Source: Rhodanobacter sp. (GTDB lineage: Bacteria; Pseudomonadota; Gammaproteobacteria; Xanthomonadales; Rhodanobacteraceae). From it: 64,000 bases of DNA. Shown here piece by piece: positions 3,178-55,826 of the stretch. The stretch's first letter is position 1, and every line of letters starts with the position of its first letter. Position numbers and translations under genes: made by a program. The DNA lies in contig SCRO01000046.1 in NCBI GenBank assembly GCA_004298505.1, positions 23,589 to 87,588 of the forward strand, in the 5' to 3' direction. The notes under the pieces were generated by a model. That model did not search any database. It was not told where the DNA came from and worked only from the letters and a program-made list of their open reading frames with translations.

Positions 3178-4860
3178 ATGGCAAAGCTGCGTCTGGCATT
3201 GGCCCAACATGATTTTCCGGTCGGCGCCGTGGCGGCGAATGCTGCCAAGGTCGCTGGCCTGATCACTCAGGCGCGCAGCGATGGCGCCGGGCTGGTGGTG
3301 TTTCCCGAGCTGACCCTCAGCGGCTACCCGCCGGAGGACTTGTTGCTGCGTCCGAGCTTCCTGGCTGCCTGTGACGATCAACTGCAGTCATTGGCCGCGC
3401 AGACCCACGGCATCGCCGCCCTGGTCGGCCATCCGCACAGCGAAGGTGAGGTATTCAATGCAGTCAGCCTGCTGCGCGATGGACGCATCGAGACCACCGC
3501 GCACAAGCAGGCGCTGCCAAACTACGGCGTGTTCGACGACAAACGCTATTTTCGACCCGGTCACGCGTCGGTCACGGCGGTGATCGAGGGTGTCCGCGTC
3601 GGCCTGCTGATCTGTGAGGATGTGTGGGAGCCGGAGCCGGTGGCGCGGGCTGCGACAGCCGGGGCGCAGTTGATCGTGGTAATCAACGCCTCGCCGTGGG
3701 ACGAGCACAAACAAGGCGAACGCGAGGCCGTGCTGCAGGCGCGGGCGCGCGAAAGCGGTTGCGCGATCGCCTACCTCAATCTGGTCGGCGGCCAGGACGA
3801 GGTGGTCTACGACGGCGGCTCTACCCTGGTCAATGGTGATGGCTCGATCGTCGCGCGCGCGCCGGCCTTCGTCGATGCGCTGCTGTGGGCCACGTTCGAT
3901 CCGGACACGCGCACGCTGCAGGCGCAAGCCTGGCCGGTGCCTGTCGATGCCTCGCGCGCGGCGGTGCTGTACGCCGCACTGGTCCGCGGCACCCGCGATT
4001 ACATCGACAAGAACGGCTTTCCCGGCGTGCTGCTCGGTCTGTCCGGTGGTATCGATTCGGCGCTGACCCTGGCGTTGGCGGTGGACGCACTGGGCCCCGA
4101 TCGCGTTACCGCGGTGATGCTGCCTACTCGCTACACCTCGGCGCTGTCGCTGGATGGCGCGCGCGTGCAGGCCGAACGGCTGGGCGTGGACTACCACGTC
4201 ATCGATATCGAACCGACGGTCGATGCGTTCATTAGCGCATTGACGCCGGCCTTCGCCGGCAAGGCCAGCGACACCACCGAGGAAAACCTGCAGTCGCGTA
4301 CTCGTGGCGTAATGCTGATGGCGCTGTCCAACAAGCACCGCATGTTGCTGCTGGCTACTGGCAACAAGAGTGAAATGGCGGTGGGCTATTGCACGCTGTA
4401 TGGCGACATGTGCGGGGCGTACGCGCCGCTGAAGGACGTCTACAAGACCGCGGTCTACCAATTGGCGCGCTGGCGTAATGCGGTCGGGAATGGAGAATGG
4501 GGAATGGGGAATCGCTTGGGCGCCCCTGACCTCCGTACTTCGATTTCCGACTCCCGATCCCCGATTCCCGTGGAGGTCATCGAACGGCCGCCCTCGGCGG
4601 AACTGCGCGAAAACCAGACCGACCAGGATTCGTTACCGCCGTATGCCGAACTTGACGGCATTCTGCAACGCTTCATCGAGGGCGAGCAATCCCAGGCCGA
4701 GATCGCGGCTCAAGGGTTCGCACCTGATACCGTGCGCCTGGTGGTGCGGTTGGTACTACTGAACGAGTTCAAGCGCCGTCAGTCGGCGCCGGGCCCGCGC
4801 GTGACCACCCGTGCATTCGGCCGCGAACGACGCTACCCCATTACTTCCGGCTGGCACTGA
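3178..4860 (+). CDS. nadE: Glutamine-dependent NAD+ synthetase, carrying an in-frame repeat insertion at about 4482-4570
   Basis: N-terminal nitrilase domain (MAKLRLALAQHDFPVGAVAAN), SGGIDSALT PP-loop, RPPSAELRENQTDQDSLPPY. Confidence 0.95.
   Translation: MAKLRLALAQHDFPVGAVAANAAKVAGLITQARSDGAGLVVFPELTLSGYPPEDLLLRPSFLAACDDQLQSLAAQTHGIAALVGHPHSEGEVFNAVSLLRDGRIETTAHKQALPNYGVFDDKRYFRPGHASVTAVIEGVRVGLLICEDVWEPEPVARAATAGAQLIVVINASPWDEHKQGEREAVLQARARESGCAIAYLNLVGGQDEVVYDGGSTLVNGDGSIVARAPAFVDALLWATFDPDTRTLQAQAWPVPVDASRAAVLYAALVRGTRDYIDKNGFPGVLLGLSGGIDSALTLALAVDALGPDRVTAVMLPTRYTSALSLDGARVQAERLGVDYHVIDIEPTVDAFISALTPAFAGKASDTTEENLQSRTRGVMLMALSNKHRMLLLATGNKSEMAVGYCTLYGDMCGAYAPLKDVYKTAVYQLARWRNAVGNGEWGMGNRLGAPDLRTSISDSRSPIPVEVIERPPSAELRENQTDQDSLPPYAELDGILQRFIEGEQSQAEIAAQGFAPDTVRLVVRLVLLNEFKRRQSAPGPRVTTRAFGRERRYPITSGWH
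4485..4570. repeat. G-rich/C-rich mini inverted-repeat element (copy A) inside nadE
   Basis: CGGGAATGGAGAATGGGGAATGGGGAATCG...CGATTTCCGACTCCCGATCCCCGATTCCCG. Confidence 0.85.
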
Positions 4861-6867: not shown

Positions 6868-6899
6868 CATTCCCCATTCCCCATTCCCCATTCCCGCAA
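6868..6899. repeat. Tandem ATTCCCC half-element (copy B) immediately 5' of pgeF
   Basis: CATTCCCCATTCCCCATTCCCCATTCCCG. Confidence 0.8.
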
Positions 6900-18123: not shown

Positions 18124-19908
18124 ATGCGCACGCATTACTGCGGCCTTATCGATGAGTCGCTGATCGGCCAGACCGTCACCCTGTGCGGGTGGGTCAACAA
18201 GATTCGCCTGCAGGCCCACGTCGCCTTTGTCGACCTACGTGATCACGAAGGCCTGGCCCAGGTGGTGATCGAGCGCGAGAACGCAGGGGGCTTTGCCGTC
18301 GCCAGCGAGATCGGCAACGAATACTGCCTGCGCGTCACCGGTACCTTGCGCAAGCGCATCGCGGTCAACGACAAGCTCAAGACCGGCACGGTCGAGCTGC
18401 TTGCCGAGACGGTGGAGATCCTCAATGCCGCGAAGGATCTGCCATTCGCGCTGCACGAGAACCCGAACGAGGACATGCGGATGACCTACCGCTACCTCGA
18501 CCTGCGCCGCCCCGAGATGCAGGCGATGATACGCAAGCGGATCCGTCTGGTGCAGGTGCTGCGCCGCTATCTCGACGAGCGTGGTTTCCAGGATGTGGAA
18601 ACGCCGATCCTGACCAAGGCCACGCCCGAGGGCGCACGTGACTACCTGGTACCCAGCCGCGTGCACCCGGGCCAGTTCTACGCGCTGCCGCAGTCGCCGC
18701 AGCTGTTCAAGCAGATCCTGATGGTGGCCGGCTTCGATCGTTACTACCAGATTGCGCGTTGCTTCCGCGACGAGGACCTGCGTGCGGATCGCCAGCCGGA
18801 ATTCACCCAGCTCGACCTGGAGTTCGCCTTCGTCGAGGAAAAGGATGTGCAGGACTTCGTAGAGGATTTGATCCGCCACGTATTCCGCCAGGTGCAGGGC
18901 GTGGAACTGGAGGCGACGTTCCCGCGCATGAGCTGGATAGAGGCGATGCGTCGCTTCGGCTCGGACAAGCCGGACCTGCGTATCGCGCTGGAGTTGGTGG
19001 ATGTGGCCGACGCCCTGAAGCACCTCGAGTTCAAGGTATTCGCCGGGCCGGCGAATGATCCGGCCGGCCGTGTCGCCGCGCTGCGCGTGCCAGGCGGCAG
19101 CACGCTGTCGCGCAAGGATATCGACGGGTTGACCGGGTATGCCTCGCGCTACGGTGCAAAAGGCCTCGCCTGGCTCAAGGTCGAGGATCGGGCGAAAGGC
19201 CGCGACGGGATCAATTCGCCGGTGGCGAAGTTCCTCGACGACATCGCGCTGGACGGCGTGCTCACGGCCACGGCCGCGCAGACCGGCGATATCGTGTTCT
19301 TCGGCGCCGGCGCCTGGAAGACGGTCAGCGACTTCATGGGCGCGGTGCGGCTGAAAGTTGCCAGGGATCGCGGCCTGGTCGAGGACAGCTGGAAGCCGCT
19401 GTGGGTCACCGATTTTCCGATGTTCGAGTACGCCTCGGAGGAGCAGCGCTACGTCGCGCTGCATCACCCGTTCACCGCGCCGAAGATCGACGACATCGCC
19501 GACCTGCGCGCGCACGCGGCAACCGCGGTGAGCCGCGGCTACGACATGGTGCTCAACGGCAACGAGATCGGCGGTGGTTCGATCCGTATCCACCGGCCAG
19601 ACATGCAGAGTGCGGTATTCGAGCTGCTCGGCATCGGCGCCGAGGAAGCCGAGGCGAAGTTCGGCTTCCTGCTCAAGGCGCTGAAGTTTGGCGCGCCCCC
19701 GCATGGCGGCATTGCCTTCGGGGTTGATCGGATTGCCGCGCTGATGGCCGGTACCGAATCCATCCGCGACGTGATCGCGTTCCCCAAGACCACCAGCGCG
19801 CAGGACCTGATGACCGACGCGCCGTCGCCGATTGCCGCAGCGCAGTTGAAAGAATTGCACGTGCTGGTCACCCATGGGAAACGGGAAACGGGGAACGGGG
19901 AACGCTAG
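18124..19908 (+). CDS. aspS: Aspartyl-tRNA synthetase
   Basis: [28 protein letters not shown]..., [17 protein letters not shown]-terminus [12 protein letters not shown] encoded by repeat. Confidence 0.97.
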
Positions 19909-46534: not shown

Positions 46535-46615
46535 GGGAATGGGTAATGGGTAATGGGTAAGGCGAAAGGCATGCGGCCCAGGGCTTTTAACTATTCTCCA
46601 TTCCCTATTCCCACT
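46535..46615. repeat. G-rich/C-rich mini element (copy E) with canonical G4 motif
   Basis: GGGAATGGGTAATGGGTAATGGG ... CTATTCTCCATTCCCTATTCCCA. Confidence 0.85.
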
Positions 46616-55754: not shown

Positions 55755-55826
55755 GGGGTGGGAACGGGGAACGGGGAACGGGGAGCATCAGATTTGCAAC
55801 AAACCACATGTTCCCCCGTTTCCCGC
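55755..55826. repeat. G-rich/C-rich mini element (copy F) between pstB and phoU
   Basis: GGGGTGGGAACGGGGAACGGGGAACGGGG ... TTCCCCCGTTTCCCGCC. Confidence 0.85.

Follow-up and report, generated by a model that had tools for sequence, protein, structure and literature searches.

The nadE gene (3178..4860, + strand) of the window, the 64,000-nucleotide stretch of Rhodanobacter DNA analysed here, encodes a glutamine-dependent NAD(+) synthetase of 560 residues with PF00795 and PF02540 domains. In a profile search its product scores 738 bits against NF010588 over residues 2-559, well above the cut-off of 479, which makes it a full-length member of the family. No other full-length NAD synthetase was found in the genome, the remaining PF02540 matches being short and partial, and its closest solved structures are 4f4h and 5kha. 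Within the gene, positions 4485-4570 form an imperfect inverted repeat of the type (GGGAATN)4 - 26 nt - (NATTCCC)4, the two arms of which are 30 nt each, 77% complementary and 26 nt apart in the inverted-repeat search. The 5' arm (4485..4514, + strand) consists of the four G-rich heptamers GGGAATG, GAGAATG, GGGAATG and GGGAATC, one unit being mutated, and the 3' arm (4541..4570, + strand) of four C-rich heptamers, the reverse complement of the G-rich unit, with a final ATTCCC that encodes a conserved Ile-Pro. The spacer between them (4515..4540, + strand), which we compared with the spacers of the nadE inserts of related genomes, is translated too, as the LGAPDLRTS region. The inverted repeat is thus read in frame as residues 436-464 of NadE, and the translated insert spans V436-V465 (VGNGEWGMGNRLGAPDLRTSISDSRSPIPV; 4483..4572, + strand). 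Both the DNA and the NadE translation quoted in the preliminary description, which had reported a repeat copy read in frame within an NAD synthetase, are confirmed. Predicted tryptic peptides across the region are NAVGNGEWGMGNR, LGAPDLR, TSISDSR and SPIPVEVIER.

The insert occupies the linker that joins the RWRN helix to the IP..VI.RPPSAEL segment. In insert-less nadE genes, this native linker has about 18 codons between RWRN and RPPSAEL (e.g. AQAARAGEGDMIPAAVIE), and the RN...RPPSAEL gap measures 105 nt in the present gene versus 54 nt in insert-less relatives, indicating a net gain of 17 codons and partial loss of the native linker. The expected insertion of a multiple of three nucleotides holds with regard to frame, which is always kept, but the event was not a clean one, as the 18-codon linker was partly replaced. 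In an AlphaFold2 model of NadE built from 44 sequences (pLDDT 89 overall, pTM 0.90), the sole segment with pLDDT below 50 comprises residues 442-457. Because this only very-low-confidence segment falls within the insert, between helices 423-436 and 465-469, the insert is likely a flexible loop, in agreement with the placement initially proposed.

The insert belongs to a dispersed repeat, as first supposed: BLAST with the nadE insert finds 26 places in the genome, the insert itself included, and a strict four-unit heptamer pattern gives 47 matches genome-wide, overlapping registers included, many of them arranged as plus/minus pairs. In the window, three consecutive GGGAATN units with up to 3 mismatches occur 10 times, compared to 0.01 expected. 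The heptamer matches include a single four-unit arm upstream of pgeF (6869..6896, - strand) and two copies without assigned strand, namely an intergenic paired copy with a G-rich arm, a GCGAAAGGC...GGGCTTTTAAC inner box and a C-rich arm (46535..46612), and a GGGGAAC-type copy whose second arm is degenerate (55760..55803). At the intergenic copies, the full element comprises an arm, the inner box GGAAAAGC, a variable spacer, the inner box GCTTTTCC and a second arm, and several copies have GCC/GGC outer ends. The ends of the nadE insert are GCCGGG...CCCGGC-like, and neither a GTAG nor a CGTC tag is found there. Tandem units, mutually correcting arms and variation in repeat number would fit slippage and quasipalindrome correction, that is, an origin without any mobility, with in-place expansion of a short G-rich stretch in the native linker and a second arm copied from a hairpin template. 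We regard this origin as very improbable indeed: intergenic copies at many loci have the inner box GGAAAAGC...GCTTTTCC and the GCCGGG ends as well, which means that the whole element is present and not just a tract, and other repeat families are found in the same loops of valS and uvrD, described below.

This family is essentially one already known, the GGGNATC heptamer repeat that Rehm et al. (2015, PMC4692102) reported from Xanthomonas and Nostoc, in which four units are preferred and convergent inverted pairs are frequent, numbering 70 and 75 in two Xanthomonas genomes. Most of the Xanthomonas heptamers lie between genes, 7-11% being at least partly intragenic, and the search definition accepts mutated units, four intact G-tracts being optional. 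The present repeats share with that family the GGGAATC/GGGANTN unit, in tandems of at least 14 bp containing GGGAATC, as well as the dispersal and the convergent inverted pairs. They differ in that the unit varies by genome (AAT, ATT, AAC, ACC) and that the coding copy follows this variation. Rehm et al. do not mention Rhodanobacter, and the parts of their paper considered here describe neither in-frame colonised loops of named essential genes nor species-specific dialects.

Repeats inside protein genes are known from other systems, so the view that repeat-derived coding sequence is unusual needs qualification: the phenomenon at nadE is real, but in-frame palindromes in housekeeping genes have been published (PMC2229807, PMC3733652, PMC10969869), and the family itself is known in Xanthomonas (PMC4692102). 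The RPE of Rickettsia (Ogata et al.; PMC2229807, PMC10969869) are palindromes of about 100 nt found in frame in genes of conserved proteins, where they are tolerated, the gmk product being active. Both systems have an in-frame palindrome inside a conserved protein gene, a likeness judged without comparison of RPE sequences; the RPE host is however an obligate intracellular bacterium and its palindrome of a different kind, whereas here heptamer arms occur in an apparently free-living gammaproteobacterium and are repeatedly replaced at a single site. Intragenic GTAG/CGTC REPs, which occur in many free-living bacteria, encode 20-30 amino acids in housekeeping genes, including those of tRNA synthetases and UvrD/REP helicase, and in recB of two Xanthomonas species nearly the same position is occupied by different REPs (Di Nocera et al. 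2013, PMC3733652). The heptamer elements are of another class, without the GTAG/CGTC tag; the main text of that paper does not name NAD synthetase, and its parts considered here contain no tracking of dialects. Finally, REPINs consist of two inverted repeats around a variable spacer, make up a population within each genome that has a master sequence of its own, and are copied by RAYT (Bertels and co-workers, PMC8049555). The heptamer elements are alike in their two inverted repeats and variable spacer and in forming such a population, but no PF01797 (Y1_Tnp) match is found in the heptamer-rich relatives G010 and G028, despite 114 and 75 heptamer matches, respectively, so that RAYT is rejected as a required driver. 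The present genome (G000) has six PF01797 matches, which may be of the RAYT or the IS200 class.

We compared the nadE site of 44 related Rhodanobacter/Dyella genomes in which it could be read (designated by G numbers). Recognisable heptamer inserts, with at least two heptamers, are present in at least 16 of the 44, all of them in frame, and three further genomes have degenerate inserts. The gap between RWRN and RPPSAEL reaches 67 codons across the relatives, always with the frame kept, compared to 35 codons in the allele studied here; this frame conservation is weak independent evidence, since a frameshift in an indispensable gene would be eliminated in any case. Insert-bearing genomes are richer in heptamers than insert-less ones (Mann-Whitney p = 1e-6, kinship ignored). 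The relatives do not share a conserved non-repeat sequence of this length, their sequences at the site being repeat-derived and variable. The insert is thus not the one-off event in this strain that it first seemed to be, as inserts occur in frame at the same site across the genus, and likewise in valS and uvrD. A misassembly, a pseudogene or a segment removed from the RNA or protein is an extremely improbable account of these data: although repeats broke the contigs of two relatives (G002 and G033), in-frame inserts at the same site occur in independent assemblies, including the complete genomes G009, G008 and G001, no second full-length NAD synthetase was found in the genome, and splicing systems acting on such an element are not known. 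The G002 and G033 assemblies break inside the nadE insert itself, and draft genomes may therefore yield too low a count of repeat-bearing alleles. One relative also has a second NAD synthetase gene (G016:C11:276400-278600), 48% identical and without insert.

The persistence of the inserts across much of the genus could be taken to indicate a function, with the extra loop or its G-rich, hairpin-forming mRNA regulating NadE amount, oligomerisation or ammonia channelling, and G-rich heptamers of Xanthomonas are able to form G-quadruplexes in vitro (PMC4692102). Such a co-option seems very unlikely to us. Whether an insert is present, how long it is and what its sequence is all vary freely, also among near sisters, and the insert segment is predicted with pLDDT below 50. 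The insert RNA folds no better than shuffled sequences (z = -0.39), so RNA structure was rejected as a conserved feature, and an Rfam search gave only sub-threshold matches. Moreover, the 5' arm of this nadE contains three G-tracts of 3 or more rather than the four present in other copies of the family in the genome, its second unit being GAGAATG.

The nadE linker is not the only coding site of this kind. In the present genome, valS carries in-frame heptamers in the loop before RWIL (ARFVLMH-LEDGNRESGIGNRQEPVTEAE-RWIL; C10:9303-9326, - strand) and uvrD has an in-frame heptamer insert of the GGGATT type (C95:68622-69227, - strand). In the window, heptamers of the GGGAAAC/GGGGAAC type end the aspS gene (19876..19908, + strand), where they encode a 10-residue C-terminal tail followed by the stop, past the family profile. 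Among the approximately 34 heptamer places listed for G009, the three internal to conserved genes are precisely nadE, valS and uvrD; in the uvrD gene of this relative the insertion is clean, with 31 extra residues between those equivalent to E. coli UvrD residues 473 and 474, which are adjacent in E. coli. Across the relatives, the valS loop contains, in frame, three different repeat families, including CCCTCTCC-type and TGTGGGAGCGACTTCAGTCGCGAT-type palindromes, and the uvrD loop contains, also in frame, either heptamers or CCCTCTCC-type palindromes. Since other palindromic families are present in them as well, the valS and uvrD loops are general landing sites. As a separate observation, both the CCCTCTCC...GGGAGAGGG and the TGTGGGAGCGACTTCAGTCGCGAT palindromes serve as coding sequence at the valS/uvrD loci.

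Four unit types, GGGAAT, GGGATT, GGGAAC and GGGACC, were counted in 45 genomes, and most repeat-rich genomes show a single dominant type. Each genome has its own heptamer dialect, which the nadE insert tends to follow. We expressed this match as the probability that a genomic heptamer, the genome's own insert being removed, has the type of the insert; over 16 genomes its mean is 0.647, compared to 0.314 +/- 0.075 for shuffled pairings (p = 5e-5), in a permutation where the 16 genomes are related and kinship is corrected no further than sister pairs. In two sister pairs the insert type switches together with the genome type, as the own pairing matches far better than the swapped one in both G000/G014 (0.89 vs 0.09) and G043/G008 (0.76 vs 0.21). 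Two other sister pairs are uninformative or do not switch, the swapped pairing fitting equally well in G009/G042, and the insert flavour differs from the main genomic dialect in three genomes (G003, G042 and G022). The GGGACC dialect has 37 matches in G020 and none in the 44 other genomes, and the nadE insert of G020 has 8 GGGACC units.

The inserts also turn over independently of their flanks. G043 agrees with its sister G008 at 85% of 4-fold sites and over 53% of the spacer core, and with the more distant G009 at 69% of 4-fold sites and over 79% of the spacer core, the kinship of G043 and G008 being seen in two unlinked gene trees (nadE and valS), which are only partly resolved. G007 has no insert, although it shares about 95% flank identity with the insert-bearing G010 and G028. 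At a flank identity that is also about 95%, G009 and G042 differ in their spacers and in the length of their insert regions (114 and 174 nt). A single insertion, simply inherited in vertical descent and altered by drift, was rejected because insert divergence and flank divergence disagree. The nadE spacers are nevertheless more alike across dialects than expected, with 9.9 of 19 positions identical versus 5.6 for shuffles (p = 0.0017), and this resemblance between AAT and ATT spacers makes a distant common origin of many nadE inserts likely. Conversion of the arms only, with one ancestral spacer kept, is weakened because spacer similarity tracks arm type and the 3' arm of the AAT group is offset by one base from that of the ATT group.

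Part of this pattern would be expected if the distribution of inserts came mainly from homologous recombination (through natural transformation, for instance), in which species exchange short loop alleles by way of the conserved RWRN and RPPSAEL flanks, instead of from repeat mobility or ectopic conversion within genomes. G043, G009 and G012 share spacer and arm type even though G008 is the sister of G043 in both trees, the insert-less alleles within the insert-bearing clade (G007, G044, G032 and G038) have native-type linkers, with AVI in place of EVI, and the relatedness of spacers of different dialects points in the same direction. Nevertheless, exchange by itself leaves the insert's match to the recipient's own dialect unexplained, unrelated repeat families share a loop both in valS and in uvrD, and sister-level flank identity right up to the insert would require very short exchanged tracts. 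We therefore consider recombination as the main cause to be possible, if somewhat doubtful.

Our preferred reading, which we hold to be very probable, is that the insert is a tolerated and repeatedly replaced dispersed repeat in a permissive loop of NadE, its frame kept by selection, which tends to carry the dialect of its genome. The insert would be a copy of a dispersed, non-autonomous, REPIN-like palindrome, with tandem heptamer arms inverted around a variable spacer, and would be translated as a flexible hydrophilic loop in the variable linker. A permissive linker would account for its tolerance, with selection on NadE demanding no more than an open frame and a length of 3n; the loop itself would then be neutral. 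The heptamer units would suit a coding role: repeated in tandem, those of the main dialects contain no stop on either strand (GNRESGI/DSRFPIP and relatives). Stop-free six-frame coding was rejected as a special property of the unit, as 204 of the 256 GGGNNNN heptamers are open on both strands. The nadE, valS and uvrD loops would repeatedly gain, replace and lose repeats, so that the insert would tend toward the current heptamer dialect of its genome. Copying could proceed by ectopic conversion, by enzymatic re-insertion or by exchange of loop alleles through homologous recombination, and probably more than one of these routes is at work. Alternatively, a genome-wide, RAYT-independent homogenising process might rewrite the heptamers of all copies, coding ones included, to one dialect per lineage, mostly in the arms and leaving the spacers. 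We find this unlikely; if true, homogenisation would continually re-edit loops in essential enzymes, NadE, ValS and UvrD among them.

With regard to the open-access literature, three aspects seem to be new: the heptamer family as nadE coding sequence, several repeat families in one loop across a genus, and a coding copy that matches the dialect of its genome. Loops of essential enzymes serve here as landing sites in which the past of a genome's repeat families is recorded, and nadE, valS and uvrD together offer a comparative system for asking how each species keeps a single dialect among its dispersed short repeats and how proteins can take up selfish DNA and still function. Variable loops in alignments of conserved enzymes should be viewed with caution, as they may be repeat-derived rather than adaptive.

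One further copy in the same genome resembles the nadE insert closely. C52:87332-87378 comprises a lone arm and a partial spacer, is 88% identical over 46 nt to the 3' half of the nadE insert and shares unusual unit variants with it, which suggests a possible exchange between the two loci.
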